Origin: Pseudomonadota bacterium
GTDB lineage: Bacteria; Pseudomonadota; Gammaproteobacteria; Steroidobacterales; Steroidobacteraceae
NCBI GenBank assembly: GCA_018241505.1
Contig: JAFEDS010000005.1
Span: 62,001-126,000 of the forward strand
DNA: 64,000 nt
Direction: 5' to 3'
In this document: one piece after another, positions 30,202 through 50,602 of the stretch
Layout: each line of letters opens with the position of its first letter
Numbering within the stretch: position 1 is the stretch's first letter
Made by a program: the position numbers and the translations under genes
The notes under the pieces: generated by a model
Database searches by the model: none
The model's input: the letters and a program-made list of their open reading frames with translations, nothing else
Told to the model about the DNA's origin: nothing

Positions 30202-30277
30202 GGGGCGGTAGCTCAGTTGGGAGAGCGATGCGTTCGCAATGCATAGGTCGAGGGTTCGATTCCCTTCCGCTCCACCA
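30202..30277 (+). tRNA. tRNA-Ala (anticodon CGC)
   Basis: 76 bases with encoded CCA. The 7-bp acceptor GGGGCGG pairs with CCGCTCC and contains the G3-U70 wobble pair that identifies alanine tRNA. The D arm (GCTC/GAGC), anticodon stem ATGCG/TGCAT with loop TTCGCAA (anticodon CGC at 30235-30237) and T arm (GAGGG, TTCGATT, CCCTT) all fold. Its 3' end is the integration target of the downstream elements. Confidence 0.95.
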
Positions 30278-30278
30278 G
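30257..30278 (+). repeat. attL of element 1 (22-bp direct repeat in the tRNA-Ala 3' end)
   Basis: The 22 bases from the T arm of tRNA-Ala through its CCA plus one G are repeated exactly at 47178-47199 in the same orientation. This is the expected product of tyrosine-integrase insertion into a tRNA 3' end, leaving the tRNA intact on the left side. The integrase gene starts 165 bases to the right. Confidence 0.93.
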
Positions 30279-30442: not shown

Positions 30443-31648
30443 ATGCCGCTGAATGACACCGTCATCCGCAATACGAAGCCGCAGGAGCGGCCCTTCAAGT
30501 TGTTCGATGAGCGCGGGCTGTTTCTGCTCGTGAAGCCCAACGGAACACGTCTCTGGCGGTTCAAATATCAATTCCAGGGTCGCGAGAAGTTGATCAGTTT
30601 CGGCGACTATCGGGACGTACCCCTCCGGCGGGCACGTGACAAGCGCGACGAAGCTCGGCGTTTGGTCGCCGATGGCGTTGACCCGAGTGAGCAACGACAA
30701 GCCGAACGAGCTTCGCGCGCGGACACATTCGCGGGCATCGCTCATGAGTGGCTCGAGACGAAACGGAAGGTCCTGAGTGAGGGGACCTGGGAGCGCGACC
30801 GTGACCAACTCGTGAAGGTCGTCGGGCCACACCTGGGCAAGAAGCCGATTGCGACGATCGAGGCGCCGGATCTGCTCGCCGTGCTCAAGAAGGTCGAGGC
30901 GAAGGGGCGACACGACACTGCGCACCGCATCCGCGCTGTCGTCGGCCGCGTGTTTCGGTATGCCATCGCCACCGGCCGCGCCACGCGGGACATTTCGGCC
31001 GATTTGAAGGGCGCGCTGGCTGCCCGAAATACTCGACATCATCCCGGATTCACCGATCCGATGCGGGTGGGCGAGTTACTGCGGGCGATCGATGGATACG
31101 CGGGGCAGGTCAGCACGGGGTCGGCGCTGAAGCTCGCGCCCTACGTTTTCGTGCGGCCTGTCGAATTGCGGTCGGCTGAGTGGGCTCACATCGACCTGAC
31201 CAACGCCGAGTGGAGGATACCGGCCGAGATCATGAAAATGGGCGAGCTTCACATTGTTCCGCTGTCGCGCCAAGCGCTTGCTATTTTGACGGAGTTGAAG
31301 ACGATTACCGGAAACGGCAAGTTTGTCTTCCCGGCCATCGGGCCTAACTTGCGCCCGTTGAGCGAAAATACACTCAACGCAGGGCTGCGCAGGTTGGGAT
31401 ACAACACGCAGACCGAACATTGCGCCCACGGGTTTCGCACTACAGCGAGCACACTGTTGAATGAGCAGGGGTATCACCCGGACCTCATCGAGTTGCAGTT
31501 GGCGCATGCTGAGCGAAACAAAGTTAGAGCGGCCTACAATCGGGCGCAGCGCCTGGATGAGCGTCGCAGAATGATGCAAGCCTGGGCCGACTATCTCGAT
31601 GGTCTCAGGATCGGTGGCAACGTCATACCGATCCGGCGGCTTGCGTGA
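30443..31648 (+). CDS. int: Tyrosine-type site-specific integrase (P4/DUF4102 family)
   Basis: 401 aa. The N-terminal DUF4102 arm-binding domain (DTVIRNTKPQERPFKLFDER, then GLFLLVKPNGTRLWRFKY) is followed by a core-binding domain and the catalytic domain: first Arg in VRPVELRSAEW, His-x-x-Arg in CAHGFRTTAST, and LAHAERNKVRAAYNRA holding the last His and the nucleophilic Tyr. It catalyses recombination between the tRNA-Ala 3' end and the element's att site. Its position 165 bases from attL and its rightward orientation are usual for this family. Confidence 0.95.
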   Translation: MPLNDTVIRNTKPQERPFKLFDERGLFLLVKPNGTRLWRFKYQFQGREKLISFGDYRDVPLRRARDKRDEARRLVADGVDPSEQRQAERASRADTFAGIAHEWLETKRKVLSEGTWERDRDQLVKVVGPHLGKKPIATIEAPDLLAVLKKVEAKGRHDTAHRIRAVVGRVFRYAIATGRATRDISADLKGALAARNTRHHPGFTDPMRVGELLRAIDGYAGQVSTGSALKLAPYVFVRPVELRSAEWAHIDLTNAEWRIPAEIMKMGELHIVPLSRQALAILTELKTITGNGKFVFPAIGPNLRPLSENTLNAGLRRLGYNTQTEHCAHGFRTTASTLLNEQGYHPDLIELQLAHAERNKVRAAYNRAQRLDERRRMMQAWADYLDGLRIGGNVIPIRRLA

Positions 31649-32172
31649 AGAAAGCACCCTCTAAGGGTCAGCGGAATGAAGGTAGCCGCGTCCGCGCGCG
31701 CGTGGCCGCCCGCTTGCGCAAAGCCGGCAACTCATCAGTGCCCAGAAGGGCGTCAGGAGCGCCGAGTCAATTTCAGATTTACCACGTATGGATGGCCGCG
31801 CACTTTCTCCATCTCCGAAAGAAACTCAACAATCGCCGGACGCGAATAAAGGCGAGTGATGCCGCCGAGCGGGTTGCGGCTGCCTGGGGCGTATCTCCGT
31901 CAGCGGTACTGCAAAGTGAGAAGGCCCATCGTCCCGAGTGCGAATCACTCGCCAACAATTTTCCCGACGCGTTTGAACCAAATATGAAACCCGTCCGAGA
32001 CGGCCGGAACCTCAGCACGCTCATGAAAGCGGGCGTCACCCAGGATGGATACATCGACCAAAGTTGTATCGCTCAGTACATCCGCATGTTTCGATCGATG
32101 AGCGATCCGCAGGTCGAACGCGGACAAGTCGAGTCCTTGCGGCGCATTCGCCGGAATAAACCACTATCCTGA
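31645..32172 (+). CDS. Hypothetical protein of the element's integrase operon
   Basis: 175 aa from GTG 31645, overlapping the integrase stop by 4 bases. The N-terminus is strongly basic; the middle has a helix-turn-helix-like stretch (KASDAAERVAAAWGVSPSAV), and the C-terminus is polar. It may be a DNA-binding protein; no family was recognised. Translational coupling to the integrase suggests a role in element maintenance. Confidence 0.6.
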   Translation: MKKAPSKGQRNEGSRVRARVAARLRKAGNSSVPRRASGAPSQFQIYHVWMAAHFLHLRKKLNNRRTRIKASDAAERVAAAWGVSPSAVLQSEKAHRPECESLANNFPDAFEPNMKPVRDGRNLSTLMKAGVTQDGYIDQSCIAQYIRMFRSMSDPQVERGQVESLRRIRRNKPLS

Positions 32173-32307
32173 ATTAGAACAGCCACTTGCAGAATTAGCT
32201 GTTGGCGATTGTTGAGCTTCGTCAATCAATTCTGCGTACTTTCTCCATCGCCATCTCATGGCAGCCAGCGCAACTGCGCACTGGCTAACACACGTGAGGG
32301 ATGTCCG

Positions 32308-32544
32308 ATGGCTGTCACAGTGACGAACACACGCCGGTTTCTGCGTCTACCGGCAGTAATGGAAAAAACCGGCCTGTCTCGCGCGAGCATCTATCGGCTC
32401 GGCGCGCTCGGCAGGTTCCCCAAGCGCGTAAAGATCAGCGAAAACACTGCAGCTTGGGACGAGCAGGAGATTGACGCGTTCCTCAATGAGCGCGTGGCAG
32501 CGACTCGCGATGATCTCGAGTCATCGGGCCGAACAGGCACGTAA
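32308..32544 (+). CDS. alpA: AlpA-family excisionase/transcriptional regulator
   Basis: 78 aa from ATG 32308 with a GAGGG ribosome site. The short winged HTH of AlpA/MerR-like prophage regulators is clear: FLRLPAVMEKTGLSRASIYR then FPKRVKISENTAAWDEQEID. In P4-like elements and satellites AlpA activates integrase/excision genes. A longer in-frame start would add 33 untypical residues. Confidence 0.88.
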   Translation: MAVTVTNTRRFLRLPAVMEKTGLSRASIYRLGALGRFPKRVKISENTAAWDEQEIDAFLNERVAATRDDLESSGRTGT

Positions 32545-32733
32545 CGTTGTTTGTCTGCTTCCCGACATAGAAGACTGGAGACGACGGCGCGAGTCGCGAT
32601 CTGCAGCAACCGGCCAGCAGACTGTTTATTTACCGGGAAAAAAAGGGTGTCTCAGAAGAGAAGCCCGTGAGGCGGCACACCACGACGGCCGCCGCACGGG
32701 TGAGTTTTGCAACAAGCTATCGGAGTAACCCCG

Positions 32734-32955
32734 GTGAGCCTATCAAAATCAAAACCCGGGCGCACGTCGCCGCCCTGTAGCCCTCCGTTGTCGCAGATTT
32801 TGGAACCCAAGTTTGTAACGCGGCTCGCCGCAGCGGGCATCGTCAATGCCTCCGATTGGCTCGCGCTCAAACCGAAAGCGCGCAAGTCCATATTTGGGAT
32901 TACGCCCGCGATGGTCGATCAGATCGGCGCCGCCATCGCGGAGGTCGCACGATGA
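32734..32955 (+). CDS. Small protein with a helix-hairpin-helix-like segment
   Basis: 73 aa from GTG 32734 with GGAG 9 bases upstream. The C-terminal half (FVTRLAAAGIVNASDWLALK, then FGITPAMVDQIGAAI) resembles the helix-hairpin-helix of the RNA polymerase alpha C-terminal domain. Its ATGA overlap with the next HTH gene implies coupled expression. No assigned function; a DNA-binding accessory to replication is a guess. Confidence 0.55.
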   Translation: MSLSKSKPGRTSPPCSPPLSQILEPKFVTRLAAAGIVNASDWLALKPKARKSIFGITPAMVDQIGAAIAEVAR

Positions 32956-33485
32956 GCCATTCCCAACCCCGTGCCGTAAGCGCCTGGACGTGGCGCCGCA
33001 TGTTGCGCGATCACGGCCCCAAGGACCCCAGCGTGCGTCTGTCGCTGTTTGTCCTGTCGACCTGGATGAAGTCCAGCGGGATCGCATACCCATCTCAGAG
33101 GAAGTGGGCTGCGGCAGTTCGCGTGAGTGTCCGCACAATCCAACGCCACCAGAAGGTCGCTGTGGAGCTTGGATGGCTGGGGCTCGCCACGGCCGGCAAA
33201 ACTGATCGCGGATGGCGCATGCTCGCCTACCGTGCGGCCGTCCCCGATGATCTCGAACTAGACAGGAAGGACGAACTACTCAGTGCGGCCATCATCGCCA
33301 AGCATGGAGACATCGAGACCTCAAATGCTGACGACACCCGGATGTCGCCTGCATCGGAACATCGTAGCGACACCATGATGTCGTCAGCCCACGCCAATGG
33401 ACACGACACTCAGATGTCGTCAGCTTACGATCGTAACGCCAGTGAGTTACGTCAACGTGGTGACGACACGGAGGGTACGTCGTGA
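32952..33485 (+). CDS. Helix-turn-helix replication-type protein (phage O-like) with three internal 12-residue repeats
   Basis: 177 aa from ATG 32952. The N-terminal half is a winged HTH like those of phage replication initiators (SVRLSLFVLSTWMKSSGIAY, AAAVRVSVRTIQRHQKVAVE, LGWLGLA). The C-terminal half contains three tandem 12-residue repeats of the pattern x-D-T-x-M-S-x-A-x4, encoded by three 36-base repeats each holding a CGACA-N6-TGTCG dyad. The design, an initiator whose flexible region is encoded by its own iterons, is like lambda O. It is shorter than most O proteins, so a partner or frameshifted tail is possible. Confidence 0.7.
   Translation: MSHSQPRAVSAWTWRRMLRDHGPKDPSVRLSLFVLSTWMKSSGIAYPSQRKWAAAVRVSVRTIQRHQKVAVELGWLGLATAGKTDRGWRMLAYRAAVPDDLELDRKDELLSAAIIAKHGDIETSNADDTRMSPASEHRSDTMMSSAHANGHDTQMSSAYDRNASELRQRGDDTEGTS
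33330..33437 (+). repeat. Three tandem 36-bp repeats inside the replication gene
   Basis: Units at 33330-33365, 33366-33401 and 33402-33437. Each contains CGACA-N6-TGTCG with dyad centres exactly 36 bases apart (33339.5, 33375.5, 33411.5). Units 2 and 3 also share ATGTCGTCAGC. The length equals 12 codons, so the repeat is also a protein repeat. This is iteron-like rather than CRISPR-like, as there are no unique spacers. Confidence 0.85.
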
Positions 33486-33580
33486 CGACATCAAACCCAC
33501 TTGGTAGCGACATATGGGGCCTGTCGTGACGACACCTAGATGTCGTACTAAGCTCTTAGAAGCTTTAGAAGCTTTAAAGG
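33332..33580. other. Candidate replication origin (dyad cluster plus A+T-rich stretch)
   Basis: Four CGACA-N6-TGTCG dyads lie at 33332, 33368, 33404 and 33530, with a relaxed version (9-base spacer) at 33508 and an ACGAC/GTCGT pair at 33463-33483. Immediately to the right, 33547-33580 is A+T-rich and holds two copies of TTAGAAGCTTT. Iterons followed by an unwinding-prone stretch is the layout of lambdoid origins. The 454 bases between the stop at 33485 and the next gene contain no convincing gene; a 65-codon frame at 33514 is possible but not supported. Confidence 0.6.
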
Positions 33581-33939
33581 GAAGGTCGATTTCAGAGCGA
33601 AAACGCTCAGAACCTCAACACTCGGATGCGAACTCACCGGTATCACCGTTCACCAAACCACTCGTTCGCCAACCCGTTTTCACCGATGCATGTGCAAGCG
33701 ACTCCGAATGAGTCATGCAAACAGGCACAAGAAGTTCCTATAAGTTGGCTTGAGATGCTCATCAAACTCATGAGTCGCGATGAGACGGTGGCAACCAACC
33801 TGTCCGAGCTCCATTCGAGCCTGAGAACTTGCAGATTGATGAAGATAGGGGGCATAAGTCGGCCCCGAAAGACAAACACTCCCGGAAAATTCGTGTCAAT
33901 ATTCGAGAACACAAATTTACTGCACGAGTGTTGTGTTGG

Positions 33940-34500
33940 ATGGCCGCTCCCAAGGGACATAGACCGCCTGCTGCCGGGATGGGCAGACCGAAAGGTGTGC
34001 CCAACAAGTTCAGCGCCGAGGCCAAGGAGTGCCTTGCACTGGCATTCGAGGGGCTGGGCGGTGTGGAGGGTTTGGTTGAGTGGGGCAAGAAGCATCGAGC
34101 GGCGTTCTACCGGATCTGGTCCAAGTTGATCGCCAATAGCGGCGCGAGCGCGGCGGTGGATGCCTCGATGCACCTCACCGCGAATGTGAACATCGGCGGC
34201 GTGAGCAGCGATGCTCCTGCCGGTGACCTGACGCACGAGCAACTGATGTCGCTGGGCTACGACGAGTTGACCCGGCTCGCCCTCGCTGGCCGCATGGGTG
34301 CAGATCAGATCCTCGATGCAATCGCCGCAAAGGACGCTGAACGCGTCATCGAGCACGAGGGCGGCGCTGAGCCCGTCCATCCCGCAATCGCGGCTCCTGG
34401 GGCTCCAGTGGCGGTCTCACGCGTGGTCGATGTTGGCTCCGTTGTGGACGCGGTTCTCAACGTGGAAACGGTGCCGAGTGGAGCGCCAAACCATGGCTGA
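33940..34500 (+). CDS. Small-terminase-like phage protein
   Basis: 186 aa from ATG 33940 (GTG 33928 in frame is an alternative; neither has a strong ribosome site). It contains the phage DNA-packaging-associated start GRPKGVPNKFSAEAKECLAL, and then AFYRIWSKLIANSGA, followed by a long Ala/Val-rich tail. GRPKGxPNK proteins commonly sit at the small-terminase position. The large terminase is 3 kb downstream. Identification rests on this motif and context. Confidence 0.6.
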   Translation: MAAPKGHRPPAAGMGRPKGVPNKFSAEAKECLALAFEGLGGVEGLVEWGKKHRAAFYRIWSKLIANSGASAAVDASMHLTANVNIGGVSSDAPAGDLTHEQLMSLGYDELTRLALAGRMGADQILDAIAAKDAERVIEHEGGAEPVHPAIAAPGAPVAVSRVVDVGSVVDAVLNVETVPSGAPNHG

Positions 34501-37519: not shown

Positions 37520-39175
37520 ATGCAGACCGCGGCCCGCAGCAGCGCCGTGCAGTCCTTCGATTGGATGGCGCAGGACTACTCGGCTGTGAACCGGGAGCGC
37601 CTGCTGCGGCTCGCCTTGTGGTCCAAGAATCCGGCGCTCGTTCAGTCATCGCGAGACTTCTATCGCCACAACATTGCGCAGTTTATCGAGGATGTCGGAG
37701 TCACATCCGACCCGCGCAATGCGCTGCTCGTACCTCCGCGCCCGGTGCTGATGCCATTCCTTCTGTTTCCAAAGCAACGCGAGTTTGTGAACTGGGTTTT
37801 GGAACGGGCGAAGAACAAAGAGCACGGCCTGTGCGAAAAGTCCCGTGACTGTGGTATCTCGTGGCTGGCCATGTGCCTGGTTGGATCCCTTTGCCTCTTT
37901 AACAACAACATCAACATTGGCATTGGCAGTGCGAAGGAAGACAAGATAGACCGCACAGGCGACCCAGACACACTGCTGCACAAGCTGAGGACCTTCCTGG
38001 CGAGTGTTCCAGTTCAGTTTCGCGGTGGATATGATGAGAAACGCGACTCTGCTCACCTGCGAGTAAGAATACCTGCGACAAACTCAACGGTAGTAGGCGA
38101 GGCGGGTCGCAACATCGGTCGCGGTGGCCGCACTACCTTGTACATTATTGATGAGAGCGCATTTCTCGAATTTCCCGAGCTGGTTGAGGCATCTCTGGCG
38201 AGCAACACGGATTGCCGTATCGACATCAGCTCGGTGCGCGGCATGGGGAACCCGTTCGCGATCAAGAGACACTCGGGGAAATTCCCGGTATTTACGTTCA
38301 GACACACCGACGATCCTCGCAAGCAAGGCGATTGGCTCAAACGGATGTCGGACACCCTCGATCCGGTCACGCTCGGGTCTGAAATTTTGATCGACTATCG
38401 GGCGTCCGTTGAAGGCGCGCTCATCCCAGCGGAATGGGTGTTGGCTTCGGTCGACGCCCACAAGAAGCTTGGGATTGAGCCCGTCAGCGGCGTTTTTCGC
38501 GCGGCGCTCGATGTAGCGGATGAAGGTCGAGACCGATGCGCGCTCGCGGGCCGTCACGGAGTTGTACTGCAAACGTTGCAATCGTGGTCCGGAAAGGGCT
38601 CGAACCTGTCCGCCACAGTCTCGCGAGCATTTGCGCTCTGCGAGGACAATGACTACCAAACTTTACTTTATGACGCGGACGGCTTGGGTGCTGGATGCCG
38701 AGGGATCGCCGATGAATTGAACAAGGTACGGCGTGAGACATACAAGAAGATGATTTTCGCCGGCCCGTTCCGTGGCAGTGCGACGCCGTTCAATCCGGAC
38801 AGGCGCGTTCCAAATACACAGCGCACGGCTGGAGACTTCTTTGCCAATGCAAAATCGCAAAGTTATTGGAGCTTGCGGATGCGACTTGAAACCACATTCC
38901 GGGCTCTAGAGGGTGCGCCCTTCGATCGAGACGACATTCTTAGCATCAGCTCCGATCTCGCCGAGTTGGATCAACTCGTGAACGAGCTTATACAGCCCAC
39001 CTATACAATCAACAACGCCGGGAAGGTGTTGGTTGACAAGTCACCCAATGGGACTGCGTCACCAAATCTGGCGGACGCCGTCGCGATGTGCTTCAGTCCG
39101 TGGAGTTCCAAGGGCGGGTGGCATGACATGCGCGACTTCTCGGCAACCGCCTTGCGCCTCGGACTGGGAATGTAG
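37520..39175 (+). CDS. terL: Phage terminase large subunit
   Basis: 551 aa. The ATPase domain has the Walker A variant EKSRDCGISW (106-115), of the K-S-R-D-x-G form seen in Mu-like/gp17-type terminases, and Walker B TLYIIDE (206-212). The nuclease domain carries the acidic residues in ALDVADEGRD, LLYDADGLGAGC and NLADAVAMCF. It should pump DNA into proheads and cut it, yet no portal or capsid gene follows; the next gene is a tail-hub-like protein. Full length, no frameshift. Confidence 0.92.
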   Translation: MQTAARSSAVQSFDWMAQDYSAVNRERLLRLALWSKNPALVQSSRDFYRHNIAQFIEDVGVTSDPRNALLVPPRPVLMPFLLFPKQREFVNWVLERAKNKEHGLCEKSRDCGISWLAMCLVGSLCLFNNNINIGIGSAKEDKIDRTGDPDTLLHKLRTFLASVPVQFRGGYDEKRDSAHLRVRIPATNSTVVGEAGRNIGRGGRTTLYIIDESAFLEFPELVEASLASNTDCRIDISSVRGMGNPFAIKRHSGKFPVFTFRHTDDPRKQGDWLKRMSDTLDPVTLGSEILIDYRASVEGALIPAEWVLASVDAHKKLGIEPVSGVFRAALDVADEGRDRCALAGRHGVVLQTLQSWSGKGSNLSATVSRAFALCEDNDYQTLLYDADGLGAGCRGIADELNKVRRETYKKMIFAGPFRGSATPFNPDRRVPNTQRTAGDFFANAKSQSYWSLRMRLETTFRALEGAPFDRDDILSISSDLAELDQLVNELIQPTYTINNAGKVLVDKSPNGTASPNLADAVAMCFSPWSSKGGWHDMRDFSATALRLGLGM

Positions 39176-39186
39176 GAGGGAATGTG

Positions 39187-40281
39187 ATGGGCAACCAGTA
39201 CGATAGGCAGTTGTCCCTTGAGGTAAGCGATGCGGCGAACCCGTTTGCATCCACCCAGGCCGTCGATTCCACGACCATTGGGACCACGACGACTTTTGGT
39301 GATGCCGGTGATACGACTACGAAAATCGAGTTTGGTCTGCCGACGCCGGGAAGCAGCGCCGTCAAGGGCGGCACGCGGCCGACGGCCGGATTCAAGATCA
39401 CGTTCAACGTGCGGCGCGGGGATACGCAGACGCCCAACTCGCTGGATGTGACGATCTACAACCTGTCCGAAGAGACGATGAATCAGGTATCGACGAAGGA
39501 GTTTCGGACAATCAAGCTCCAAGCCGGCTACCCGGGGAACTTCGGATTGTTGTTTCAGGGGGAGATCAAACAGGTGCGCAAGGGTCGCACGGATGCGAAA
39601 GACTCGTACCTGACGATCACCGCAGCAGATGGGGATTCGGCTTATAACTATTCCGCGATGGCGTTGACACTAGCTGCGGGCTCGAAGCCGACCGATTCGA
39701 TCCAACAGATAGTGAAAAGCATGGCGTCAGGCGCGGTGTCCCGAGGATACACACCGGATTTACCGGCCAATGGTTTCGTGCGTAATCGAGTCTTCTGGGG
39801 CATGACCAAGGATGAGTTATACGACTTTTGCGAGGCATACGACCTCACTGCGAGTATTCAAGACGGAAAGCTGACGTTCATTCCCAATCAGGGTTACATC
39901 CCTGGCAAGGCCGTAGTGATTTCGCCTCAAACGGGATTGCTTAGCGTACCGGAGCAAACACAGAACGGGATCGAATGCGCGGTCCTCCTGAACCCCAACA
40001 TCAAAATTGGGCAGTTGGTACAGTTGCAAAATACCGCGATCAATCAGCTCCGGTATGGCGTGGATCTCGGTAGCCAGGGCGCCAACTATCAGCTCACCAA
40101 AACTGTGAAGTTGAACGCTCAGGGGCTCTATTATGTACTTGCTGCTGATCACGTGGGCGATACGCGCGGGCCGCCGTGGGAGACGAAGTTGACGTTGCTG
40201 TCGGTTGATGCGCAGATCCCTCAGAGTCAGATCAGTCGCACCAACATACAACCGGGAACAACGGCGATCCGGCGCAATTGA
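39187..40281 (+). CDS. Phage baseplate/tail-hub-like protein
   Basis: 364 aa from ATG 39187, with an AGGAGG ribosome site. After a disordered N-terminus the core begins with FKITFNVRRGDTQTPNSLDV then TIYNLSEETM, the pattern of gpD/gp27-type hub proteins that form the base of the tail spike; a LysM-like or further beta domain follows (WGMTKDELYDFCEAYDLTAS). It is the only tail gene in element 1. Its partner spike fragment lies in element 2 (50207). Confidence 0.65.
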   Translation: MGNQYDRQLSLEVSDAANPFASTQAVDSTTIGTTTTFGDAGDTTTKIEFGLPTPGSSAVKGGTRPTAGFKITFNVRRGDTQTPNSLDVTIYNLSEETMNQVSTKEFRTIKLQAGYPGNFGLLFQGEIKQVRKGRTDAKDSYLTITAADGDSAYNYSAMALTLAAGSKPTDSIQQIVKSMASGAVSRGYTPDLPANGFVRNRVFWGMTKDELYDFCEAYDLTASIQDGKLTFIPNQGYIPGKAVVISPQTGLLSVPEQTQNGIECAVLLNPNIKIGQLVQLQNTAINQLRYGVDLGSQGANYQLTKTVKLNAQGLYYVLAADHVGDTRGPPWETKLTLLSVDAQIPQSQISRTNIQPGTTAIRRN

Positions 40282-44217: not shown

Positions 44218-44443
44218 GGGGCCCAGACAGTAGGTCCTGCGAAAGCAATGCGGAAAAGCGCGTTGCTTCGATCCGCATCCGCGCGGAGATGAAGGGCGCG
44301 CAGTTGTACCGCGAGTCGGAGAAGGTGAAGACACGTCGTGGCCACCGAGGCGAAACCCCGGGCCGAAAACCCTCAAAGTACCGGTGATGCAGTTGCCGGC
44401 AGGAACTCTGCGCCGAGCCACGAACAAAGGAGATTCAAACAAA

Positions 44444-45316
44444 ATGAGTCCGATGAAATTGAAGGCTATACACCGGGTTTACACAAACGTTTGCTCGATC
44501 GGTTGGATGGACCCAGAAATCGATTTCAATGAGAAACCAAGTCTTCCTCGCGATCTTTCCAGCATAAAGGTCAAGGCCACAGGGTTTCTGCTATCGCCCC
44601 GCGTCGTTATCACTGCGCAACATGTCATCACGGGCCTACGGGCAAAAGGGATTGGCTGGGATGATTTAACCCTGGGGTTTCTCTCGCCAAACATTGGGAG
44701 TCCGGGGCCTGCCGATCTTTTCTTTCAGAAAGGAGCGCTTGTCCATAGTGTTGGAGTTACCTTAGGCGATGGCACCCAAATTGTACCGCCCCGAAAAACT
44801 CCGATGTCTGATATTGCGCTCCTGCGGCTGTCGCGACCGGTTGAGTTTCCTAAATCATCGTCGCCACAAGGTTTGAAGGTCGCAGATCCCTCGCGAATCC
44901 TTGTCGGTGAATCGGTCGTCGTGCCCGGTTACTACCTTGGTCAAACGATGCTCCGGCCTCATGGGGATGCGAGTCGCCGATTCGGCCCGCTCTTCTTGTG
45001 GGGAAGTGTGGCGTCGATTGCTCCGCACGGAATCCGTGGCCATAAGTTGGTCTCGGACTATTACGTAGATGTGACCTGCGGGGGAGGGCTCAGTGGCAGC
45101 CCTGTTTGCACAACAGAAGGAGAGGTCATCGGGATACTCACAGGCGGGATCGAGACGGAACTCGACAAGGTTCCCGATCAGAAGATATCGCGCAATCTTG
45201 GCAGGGTGCTCCCGCTCATTCCAGAAGTGGCTGACCAGTTTGTAAAAGTTGCAATGAGCGATGTGGCGACGGAATGGCCGGCGTGGATACCGCTGCCCCA
45301 ATCCATCGAGGAATAG
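44444..45316 (+). CDS. Trypsin-like serine protease (cytoplasmic, no signal peptide)
   Basis: 290 aa from ATG 44444 with AAGGAG upstream. The chymotrypsin-fold triad is visible: H60 in VVITAQHVI, D123 in MSDIALLRL and S217 in CGGGLSGSPV. No signal peptide or transmembrane segment precedes it, unusual for this fold in bacteria, where such proteases are often fused or paired with sensor modules. It follows the HEPN and membrane-protein genes. A role in defence by cleaving a partner or host protein is a hypothesis. The frame immediately past its stop is a phage-gene remnant. Confidence 0.85.
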   Translation: MSPMKLKAIHRVYTNVCSIGWMDPEIDFNEKPSLPRDLSSIKVKATGFLLSPRVVITAQHVITGLRAKGIGWDDLTLGFLSPNIGSPGPADLFFQKGALVHSVGVTLGDGTQIVPPRKTPMSDIALLRLSRPVEFPKSSSPQGLKVADPSRILVGESVVVPGYYLGQTMLRPHGDASRRFGPLFLWGSVASIAPHGIRGHKLVSDYYVDVTCGGGLSGSPVCTTEGEVIGILTGGIETELDKVPDQKISRNLGRVLPLIPEVADQFVKVAMSDVATEWPAWIPLPQSIEE

Positions 45317-47164: not shown

Positions 47165-48364
47165 TTAGAGGTAATCGCGATTCCCTTCCGCTCCACCAGA
47201 ACAATGACTTGCGCTCGATTCGGAGGGCGTCGAGTTGAGTGAGGGGACTTTTGGGGGAGAGGCCCCCAACAAACTGCGGTGAGCATGCTCCGCCAGTGCC
47301 CCCGGATTCAGGTGACCGTAGTGTTGGGCCGGCATGTCAATTGACGCCCACCCGCCCAGCTCCTGAAGAATGCGCAACGGTGTGCCGGCCTGTGTGTTCC
47401 AGCTCGCCCAGGCGTGCCGCAGCGTGTGGAACGTGACACCTTTCAGTCCGGCCGCGGCAGCCTCGCGGCGCCACATCTTCGTGGTGACAGTCTGGATCGG
47501 AGCGTGCTTCAGCCGTTCGTAAACGAACACGTAGCTGTGAACCTCCGCTGTCCACTTCTCGCCGGCTTCGGCGTGTTTGCGCTTCCATTTGAGTAGCACC
47601 TGGATTGCATCATCGTTGAGCGGAACCGGAATCGGTTCGCCGCTCTTCGTTTGATAGCCATCGATCCAGCAACGGCGGTTGTCGAGATCGACTCGCGCCC
47701 ACTCGAGGTGGGTGACGTTGCTTACTCGCAGCCCGGTTGCCAACGCGAAGACTGACATGTCCCGCGTGTGCTCGGGAAAGCGCCCGAGCAGCGTGTGTGC
47801 CTGCTCGCGAGTGAGCCACTTCGGTGTCTTCTTTGGTATGTCGAACATCGGAATGTCCGGCACCTCGGCGAGCATCTTTCCCCATTTCTTCATGGCGCAC
47901 CGGTTGAGGATGGAGCTCATTGTCGACAGATTGCACGAGCTCTTGGTCCAGAGTCGGTGCGTGTTCTTCCAACCGTTGCCCCGCCGCTCCCGCATCTCCA
48001 GCAGGCCCCGCATTGCGAGCAGGCGCTCGCAGGTGATTTCCTCGAGGCGATCCTCGGGTTGGATGTACTCGGCGATGACCTTCAGATCAGCTTCGGTACG
48101 CTTCCAGGATGCGTTGCATGAGTCCTCGGCTGTGCACTTCACCACAGCCTCAGCCCAGGTGTATCGGACTACTCCGCTGTTGATCTGCTCTCGGAGTTCG
48201 TTACGGAGTTTGTCTTCATAGGCGACGGCGGCTGATTTCTTTTTGAGTCCAGAGCTTCGCTTAACCGTGACTCCAGCGATTTGGAACTCGATTTGCCAAT
48301 ACGGAGATTCGGGGCGTACTGGCGGGCTCTGTACGGCTGGTACAACCGTGGCGGCTATGGGCAT
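47165..48364 (-). CDS. int: Tyrosine-type site-specific integrase of element 2
   Basis: 399 aa. An N-terminal arm-binding region (YWQIEFQIAGVTVKRSSGLK) and core-binding domain are followed by the catalytic domain: Arg in ALATGLRVSNVTHLEW, His-x-x-Arg in TFHTLRHAWASW, and the last His and Tyr in GWASIDMPAQHYGHLNP. It is unrelated in sequence to the integrase at 30443. The last 11 residues and the stop are encoded across the att core and 13 bases of element 1, so integration decides its C-terminus. Confidence 0.94.
   Translation of the reverse strand: MPIAATVVPAVQSPPVRPESPYWQIEFQIAGVTVKRSSGLKKKSAAVAYEDKLRNELREQINSGVVRYTWAEAVVKCTAEDSCNASWKRTEADLKVIAEYIQPEDRLEEITCERLLAMRGLLEMRERRGNGWKNTHRLWTKSSCNLSTMSSILNRCAMKKWGKMLAEVPDIPMFDIPKKTPKWLTREQAHTLLGRFPEHTRDMSVFALATGLRVSNVTHLEWARVDLDNRRCWIDGYQTKSGEPIPVPLNDDAIQVLLKWKRKHAEAGEKWTAEVHSYVFVYERLKHAPIQTVTTKMWRREAAAAGLKGVTFHTLRHAWASWNTQAGTPLRILQELGGWASIDMPAQHYGHLNPGALAEHAHRSLLGASPPKVPSLNSTPSESSASHCSGGAEGNRDYL
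47178..47199 (+). repeat. Middle att site (attR of element 1, attL of element 2)
   Basis: An exact 22-bp copy of 30257-30278. It lies inside the 3' end of the second integrase gene and encodes (on the minus strand) most of that integrase's last residues. Having the same repeat at the inner junction means both elements used the same tRNA target, one after the other. Confidence 0.93.
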
Positions 48365-49447: not shown

Positions 49448-49548
49448 GTCAGGCCATGCAGTAGCGGCTTTGAACAGGCCGCGAAGTATGCCATAGCACT
49501 CTGCCGTAAAACGCGGGTTTGGCTGGCGCCAGCACCGAGGCGTTGGTC

Positions 49549-50022
49549 ATGACCGTCACTGTCGGAATTGATCCGGGTCTGACCGGCGCGGTGGCCTTCC
49601 TGGGCAGCGAGGGAAAGCTCGAGCATCTGGCCGATTTGCCTGTCATTCGCGACGGCAAACTCGCCTGGATCGATGCGCAGGGCATGACTTCGATGTTGAT
49701 CGACACCCTACAGGGCCGGCCTGCGCGGGCGGTCATCGAGCGGGTGCAGGCCTTCCCCGGGCAAGGTCGATCGAGCTGCTTCAACTTCGGTGTCGTATTC
49801 GGTTCGCTCCTGGCGCTGATGCAGGCTCGATACCTACCAATCGAGCTCGTGACGCCCGCCACCTGGAAGCGCGCGCTGGGTCTCGGAAGCGATAAACGGG
49901 CGAGCCTCGACAAGTCTCGGCTGTTATTCCCAACCGCGGATCTGACACTCGCCAAACATGACGGGCGGGCTGAAGCGCTCTTGCTGGCTCACTGGCGTCT
50001 TACACGGGGAGCGCCAGTATGA
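49549..50022 (+). CDS. RuvC-like Holliday-junction resolvase (phage type)
   Basis: 157 aa from ATG 49549 with GAGG upstream. RNase-H-fold nuclease residues appear in order: first Asp in VGIDPGLTGAVAFLG, Glu in VIERVQAFPGQG, and the last acidic residues in AKHDGRAEALLLAHW. It would cut branched DNA during phage replication or packaging. It overlaps the next gene by 4 bases (ATGA). Confidence 0.85.
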   Translation: MTVTVGIDPGLTGAVAFLGSEGKLEHLADLPVIRDGKLAWIDAQGMTSMLIDTLQGRPARAVIERVQAFPGQGRSSCFNFGVVFGSLLALMQARYLPIELVTPATWKRALGLGSDKRASLDKSRLLFPTADLTLAKHDGRAEALLLAHWRLTRGAPV

Positions 50023-50210
50023 GTCAGGCGGCGACCGTCACGAAGGTCAAACCCGCCACCGTAACAACCACGAAGGGCGGTCGCCGGTTTGTCGTCTGTC
50101 CGGGATGCAGGGTCATTGGTGCACCGGTGCCCATGGGTGCGGATACGTACACCTGCAAGCAATGCTTTGTCGAGACTGTCCGATTGTCTTTCCGCAAGGT
50201 GGTGGCATGA
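50019..50210 (+). CDS. Small zinc-ribbon phage protein
   Basis: 63 aa, coupled to the resolvase and to the next gene by ATGA overlaps. CPGC and CKQC pairs (FVVCPGCRVIGAPVPMGADT then YTCKQCFVE) make a compact zinc ribbon. No assigned function. Confidence 0.6.
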   Translation: MSQAATVTKVKPATVTTTKGGRRFVVCPGCRVIGAPVPMGADTYTCKQCFVETVRLSFRKVVA

Positions 50211-50602
50211 GGCTAGAGTTTCCGATCAAGAAGGACGACGAAGTCATTCTCTTGGCCTCCGCGAGGTCCATCGACAACTGGTTCGCCAACGGCGGCTGTC
50301 AGCCGCCGAGCGAAGTCGGTCGCATGCACAATCTGTCAGATTGCTTCGCTCTGTGCGGCGTGAGGAATCTAACCCGGGTGAAGTCGATTGACGGCACCAA
50401 GGTGCGACTGATCAACGACGCCGGCGACTTCTACATGGCGTTCGATCCCACGGCAAAGGCGATCTCAATCCAGGCCTCTGGCGGCGTCAACATCAACGGC
50501 GCCCAGATCAGCGGGGCCGGCGAGGTCACGGATGCACTAGGGAAGGTATTGGGCACTCACCGACACGTGGAGACGGGTTCCGTAACAAACCCGCCGCAGT
50601 AG
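50207..50602 (+). CDS. C-terminal part of a phage spike/baseplate (Gp138/gpV-like) protein
   Basis: 131 aa. It begins at the FPIKKDDEVILLASARSIDN segment, which in full-length spike proteins follows an N-terminal OB-type domain of roughly 80-100 residues. Then come RMHNLSDCFALCGVRN, VRLINDAGDFYMAF, ISIQASGGVNINGAQISGAG and the tip GTHRHVETG. A start with an ATGA overlap allows expression, but the attachment domain is missing, so it is probably a relic. Confidence 0.65.
   Translation: MRLEFPIKKDDEVILLASARSIDNWFANGGCQPPSEVGRMHNLSDCFALCGVRNLTRVKSIDGTKVRLINDAGDFYMAFDPTAKAISIQASGGVNINGAQISGAGEVTDALGKVLGTHRHVETGSVTNPPQ

Follow-up and report, generated by a model that had tools for sequence, protein, structure and literature searches.

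The C-terminal domain of the bacteriophage lambda initiator, O, recruits the helicase loader. Passages of PMC5043065 describe the lambda iterons as nearly perfect inverted repeats bound by O dimers, and this source, together with parts of PMC7466680, places them in the middle of the O gene with an A+T-rich block on their 3' side. Gene 18 of P22 and gene 18 of Salmonella phage L are presented, in portions of PMC8022706, as distant O-like initiators that carry different iterons in their coding regions; in P22, gene 12, whose annotation notes similarity to DnaB helicase, comes after gene 18. According to sections of PMC6092414, Gram-negative PICIs (EcCICFT073 type) possess an integrase and AlpA as well as a replication gene whose iterons adjoin an A+T-rich stretch, and the same sections report that PICI origins have two iteron sets flanking the A+T stretch and a Pri-Rep protein. 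Herein, we describe a bacterial chromosomal locus whose layout, in terms of ancestry and architecture, points to an O-type initiator whose gene contains an origin, like those of lambda, P22 and phage L; judging from the sequence, we put the probability of this reading at about 0.78.

The window, by which we mean the whole stretch of DNA that was analysed (64,000 bp; contig positions 62001-126000 of a 7.88-Mb genome), contains an island of ~16.9 kb at a tRNA-Ala gene, delimited by an exact 22-bp repeat that was found by exact-word search. The main features of the island are as follows:

30202-30277, + strand: tRNA-Ala gene (anticodon CGC; ARAGORN, Rfam tRNA), the 3' end of which is the left attachment site
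30257-30278, + strand: attL core, 22 bp, a copy of the tRNA-Ala 3' end (exact-word search)
30443-31648, + strand: tyrosine integrase (Pfam Phage_integrase, E 4.5e-19; Arm-DNA-bind_3, E 1.4e-25; PHROG 1)
32308-32544, + strand: AlpA-type regulator/excisionase (Pfam Phage_AlpA, E 1.9e-17)
32707-32955, + strand: 82-aa ORF (ORF list), the stop of which overlaps the start of the initiator gene
32952-33485, + strand: O-like initiator gene, 177 aa (phrog_391, PF13730 HTH_36, KS9 match, AlphaFold2 model)
37520-39175, + strand: terminase large subunit (phrog_5989, E 6.3e-10)
39184-40281, + strand: baseplate hub protein (phrog_196, E 1.4e-68)
47178-47199, + strand: attR core, an exact repeat of the attL core and the right island end

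The left part of the island is read in a single direction and comprises the integrase, a 175-aa ORF without known function, AlpA, the 82-aa ORF, for which the Pfam search returned no family, and the initiator gene. The integrase, AlpA, initiator and terminase ORFs are all open. Among its near full-length matches, the terminase large subunit shares ~37-52% identity with terminases; the baseplate hub gene starts 9 bp past it, with no portal or capsid gene in between. A PHROG scan of 18 chosen island ORFs revealed no capsid, portal, helicase or helicase loader, and the DnaB proteins of Burkholderia phage KS9 and of BgVeeders33 had no counterpart in the six frames of the island (best E 0.3). Therefore, the island is most likely a defective prophage or a phage-derived satellite. 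Its right half also holds, amid unknown genes, a protease-like gene (44384-45316; phrog_9683, E 4e-7) that is possible cargo. A second tyrosine integrase gene, on the minus strand (47165-48364), overlaps the attR core with its 3' end, which suggests that a second element is integrated at, or shares, the attR site. Past the island, a RuvC-like resolvase ORF and a baseplate-type ORF were recognised by eye at 49519-50602, and from these ORFs further phage remnants seem to adjoin the island. No related initiator was found in the 12 and 14 kb examined around the two other integrase copies of the genome.

The replication-type HTH that the original prediction had assigned to the gene carrying the repeats was borne out by sequence profiles and by structure modelling. 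Residues 26-156 of the protein match phrog_391 ('replication initiation O-like', E 5.9e-6), of which it is the best match in the host genome, while the match to PF13730 HTH_36 (E 4.2e-5, 23.7 bits) lies below the 25-bit cut-off. The best named match is the O-like protein of KS9 (33% over aa 4-98, tblastn E 4e-4), which aligns over aa 9-92 with an E-value of 5.4e-12 in a small database. AlphaFold2 models a winged helix at ~aa 5-93 (block means of 79-97 pLDDT over aa 11-90), followed by a tail (aa 94-177) in which nearly all residues score below 50 pLDDT and which is probably disordered; the dyads described below are encoded in this tail stretch. Comparison of the model with viral proteins (Foldseek) gave 52 matches at E <= 1e-3; among the best 50 are many phage HTH proteins as well as one entry named 'Putative replication protein O'. 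In the PDB comparison, no solved structure matched at this threshold, and the weak, generic winged-helix matches include one 'Structure of initiator' and two segregation proteins. Searching the six frames of the island with eight O-like/initiator proteins gave no match to a C-terminal domain. Searches of viral contigs, species genomes and plasmids brought up no close relative of the protein, and 147 related genomes yielded a single weak match (28%), with no GACA-N6-TGTC in the 1.7 kb around it.

The repeats and the block that follows them are arranged as listed here:

33332-33347, + strand: dyad 1, CGACACCCGGATGTCG (pattern search)
33368-33383, + strand: dyad 2, 36 bp after dyad 1
33404-33419, + strand: dyad 3, 36 bp after dyad 2
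33464-33534, + strand: 22-bp-phased CGACA array (copies at 33464, 33486, 33508 and 33530), spanning the stop codon at 33483-33485
33530-33545, + strand: dyad 4, with perfect arms, outside the coding sequence
33546-33585, + strand: A+T-rich block, candidate unwinding element (GC content; 9-bp tandem repeats at 33550-33576)

Three CGACA-N6-TGTCG dyads at steps of 36 bp, and a fourth one 126 bp further on and past the stop codon, are present as had been claimed, and the arms of all four are perfect. The pattern occurs five times in the window, including a stray copy at 189, against a mean of 0.10 and a maximum of 1 in dinucleotide shuffles. Genome-wide there are 33 copies in 7.88 Mb, compared with 18 for the pattern read backwards, and no second cluster is seen among the genome matches listed. 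Additionally, 12 CGACA/TGTCG half-sites fall within 214 bp, whereas separate stretches elsewhere in the window reach at most 5 in 246 bp. The notion of three 36-bp tandem repeats survives only as the 36-bp distance between dyads: outside the 16-bp core just 8-9 of 20 positions agree, and Tandem Repeats Finder reported no 36-bp array in 33200-33700, so that the units are better described as spaced dyads. The 126-bp step had been counted as 3.5 units; it is in fact 60 + 22 + 22 + 22, because CGACA recurs every 22 bp, i.e., at two helix turns, from 33464 to the fourth dyad. The window has a single four-copy array at 22-bp spacing, and 100 shuffles produced none. Its copies fall, in order, in gene frames 2, 0, 1 and 2, and a looser dyad, CGACA-N9-TGTCG, lies at 33508-33526. 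The stop codon TGA is formed by the first three bases of one TGACGACA copy and the protein ends inside the iteron array, with three dyads and one CGACA site within the ORF and three more CGACA sites past it. Two further readings of the array were rejected: that of arm sites for site-specific recombination, because the array lies ~3 kb from attL and within a gene, and that of a dispersed chromosomal repeat, because the other 29 genome matches are scattered.

The three 12-codon units encode DTRMS, DTMMS and DTQMS, as would be expected if a protein-level repeat (D-T-x-M-S) merely resembled a DNA dyad. We consider this extremely improbable: when aa 121-165 were resampled synonymously, with island codon usage and the protein fixed, three dyads arose in only 13 of 50,000 draws; the leading C of CGACA closes a different codon in each unit (Asp, then Ser, then His); the array continues in other frames and past the stop; and the tail is modelled at low confidence, like disordered stretches. 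Given this, selection on DNA is the simplest reading of the dyads.

The A+T-rich block with two TTAGAAGCTTT copies was found directly after the dyads, in agreement with the original prediction. GC content drops to 0.34 at 33546-33580 (35 bp) and is 0.375 over 40 bp, against 0.606 for the window, in which 0.28% of 35-mers have GC as low as that of 33546-33580. The two copies, at 33556 and 33565, overlap by 2 bp and lie within the 9-bp tandem array; neither CGACA nor TGTCG occurs in 33546-33640. Over 40 bp, the block is weaker than that of lambda (GC of 0.375 vs 0.225), and 3' of 17 arrays, the one in the window included, the A+T bias is only moderate (mean percentile of 0.26 vs 0.58 upstream).

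The lambda ori design that had been proposed for this layout thus holds for part of it. A winged helix, in-gene repeats and an adjoining A+T-rich block (candidate unwinding element), which mark the broad O-like kind, are all present, and in both lambda and the window an O-like initiator carries inverted-repeat iterons within its own gene, starting at aa 117 in lambda and at aa 127 here, with an A+T-rich block on the 3' side. However, two features of the lambda O/P replicon, a C-terminal domain and an adjoining gene for a loader (P) or a DnaB-type helicase, were found neither among the 18 island ORFs scanned nor in the six-frame search. The iterons had been called unlike those of lambda, and so they are in their sequence and in their 36- and then 22-bp spacing (annotated lambda starts are 20-24 bp apart); moreover, the array crosses the stop codon, the protein shows no C-terminal domain and the ORFs scanned include no P-type gene. 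The dyad form, which had been counted as a further departure, is not one, since the lambda iterons described in the passages of PMC5043065 are nearly perfect inverted repeats themselves. Similarly to gene 18 of P22 and of phage L, the window gene bears iterons in the coding region of an O-like initiator, but the repeat sequences are unlike. The KS9 protein (gp46), the best named winged-helix match and a strong phrog_391 member, is 346 aa long, matches phrog_391 over aa 1-297 and is encoded beside a DnaB-like gene; the O-like genes of KS9 and of BgVeeders33, likewise a strong member, contain no GACA-N6-TGTC. Compared with the PICIs, the island shows the same combination of integrase, AlpA and replication module, but its iterons stand on one side only in the stretch examined, up to 33640, its initiator is O-like, and a large terminase and a tail hub are present. 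The locus is of a known kind, to which the iteron sequence, the double spacing and the shortened protein add new details.

The same dyad recurs in phage initiator genes. Scanning viral contigs, by DNA only, for three GACA-N6-TGTC dyads with gaps of 8-38 gave 26 stretches, half of which (13) fall within genes of the replication-initiation type; PHROG assigned 10 of these loci and inspection by eye added three near-copies, which makes about 9 distinct genes. Among the 10 PHROG loci, L109 and L114 best match a DnaD-like helicase loader and the match of L127 is weak (E 5e-5). The other 13 stretches comprise intergenic arrays next to repressor-like genes (three), simple repeats in coding sequence (two), a thymidylate-synthase region, an unknown ORF and six places without a name. 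L102, L103, L105, L106, L110, L112, L114, L125 and L127 resemble the window gene in carrying GACA-N6-TGTC at least three times in the coding region after the winged helix; these initiator-type genes differ from it in their length (245-340 aa stop to stop), in having more sequence after the array, in their spacings of 23-48 and in arrays that lie wholly within the open frame. A separate HMM, built from 15 initiators that were not chosen by dyads, identified 10 of the 26 viral stretches as initiator genes and none among the 80 matches listed, of at least 120, to the control ACAG-N6-CTGT (reversed half-site). In bacterial genomes, the GACA pattern mostly marks other things: among 80 of at least 115 matches, initiator genes numbered two by HMM and six by eye. 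An earlier scan with two dyads had given nine stretches. Of these, L005 falls within a gene of the O-like type (phrog_678), whose protein is also present, by eye, at L009, and L007 has its two dyads, spaced by 36 bp, in an ORF of HTH-like appearance without a PHROG match. One kind of helicase gene accounts for four more, all close to its start (L013 by scan and L006, L011 and L012 by eye); no initiator was visible at L008 or L010. In the literature, searched without the dyad letters as a term, we found no description of the GACA-N6-TGTC dyad in initiator genes.

Two other kinds of array were noticed during these scans. L303, L313, L319, L331, L335, L348 and others from bacterial genomes are GACA-N6-TGTC arrays with a strict 22-23-bp period outside long ORFs; a number of them come from one metagenome assembly, and none was seen in an initiator gene. 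Threefold ACAG-N6-CTGT had at least 120 viral matches, many of the 80 listed (L130-L209) being near-identical; several of the printed ORFs start like a repressor HTH gene (by eye), and these arrays apparently represent one widespread operator type.

We also took a census of 28 unselected HTH_36/O-like ORFs from 274 genomes; some of the ORFs are probably not phage initiators, and a few are near-copies of each other. Six of the 28 carry a dyad array of their own that none of 200 codon shuffles reached, five with three perfect 5-nt-arm dyads and one with five 4-nt-arm dyads; L298 and L301, whose two widely spaced copies were likewise reached by no shuffle, were left out of the six. The test misses the P22 origin and therefore undercounts. 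None of the 28 has a GACA-N6-TGTC array, and one has a single copy. Other initiators thus use other dyads, and the window gene is a further case. In L274, TGGCA/TGCCA repeats with a 23-bp phase begin directly after the TGA that ends a 120-aa winged-helix ORF, and a very A+T-rich stretch comes next, making L274 the second locus with phased repeats immediately beyond a short initiator. The profile match of L274 spans the TGA, so this form, too, may be minimal or else broken.

Taking these observations together, we propose that the integrated island, derived from a phage, has its replication module at this locus. The winged helix, for which the profile match and the model speak, would bind the CGACA/TGTCG sites, which occupy the gene stretch for the probably disordered tail and continue past the stop. 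Dimers on both the three 36-bp-spaced dyads and the 22-bp phased sites would wrap or bend the DNA, and by analogy with lambda such wrapping would open the A+T-rich block at 33546-33585, where the helicase would be loaded. No recognisable helicase- or loader-recruiting domain is present; unless the module is in decay, the host or a phage residing in the same cell would therefore need to supply the replisome.

Two forms of initiator come into question for the window gene, a minimal one and a decaying one. It seems unlikely, albeit worth considering, that it is a minimal O-type initiator, consisting of a winged helix and a disordered tail with no helicase-recruiting domain, that would do no more than mark and open the origin, with the helicase being loaded by the host or a helper phage; the array would then switch from a codon-compatible 36-bp to a helically phased 22-bp spacing where coding ends, and GACA-N6-TGTC would be a preferred target across distant phage winged-helix initiators. 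A serious possibility, which we hold only tentatively, is a decayed remnant: an initiator of ordinary length would have lost its C-terminal half during decay of the array or of the island, leaving an origin that no longer fires. The ancestry would be the same as in our preferred reading of an O-type initiator gene that contains its origin, and the difference concerns present function. Decay would explain why the ORF ends within the array, at a TGA belonging to one iteron copy, and it would suit an island with a terminase and a hub but no capsid or portal among the ORFs scanned; L274, where the profile match crosses the TGA, offers a distant parallel. However, all four dyads keep perfect arms, the six-frame search brought up no C-terminal remnant, and the integrase, AlpA, initiator and terminase ORFs are open. 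The census bears on both sides, with 19 of 28 ORFs at 220-350 aa stop to stop and 4 of 28 (120-173 aa) as short as the window gene or shorter.

That the sites are operators, from which the winged-helix protein or another island regulator represses transcription, appears improbable. Three of the viral GACA-N6-TGTC arrays (L107, L113 and L122) are indeed intergenic and beside repressor-like HTH genes (by eye), and many transcription regulators are among the solved structures that resemble the model; yet the sites lie within the gene and at its 3' end, away from a promoter, a search of 31400-34300 brought up nothing like a sigma-70 promoter, the profile matches of the protein are mostly to initiators, and it is the A+T-rich block that comes next after the sites. 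We give very little credence to a partition site, in which the phased repeats would be a centromere bound by the winged helix. Its 22-bp phasing would suit a centromere array, and TubR, which acts in plasmid segregation, and the centromere-binding protein AspA are among the weak PDB matches (E about 0.07), but the ORFs scanned include no ParA/TubZ-type partner gene and the sequence profiles indicate initiators.

With the window gene as a probable O-type initiator gene that contains its own origin, the iteron types published for lambda, P22 and L are joined by another, and our scans indicate that three spaced dyads, as a DNA pattern alone, can point to phage origins and initiators in viral sequence. 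If the shortened form works, origin recognition would be separated from helicase loading, and it would become clear which part of an O-type protein serves which step.
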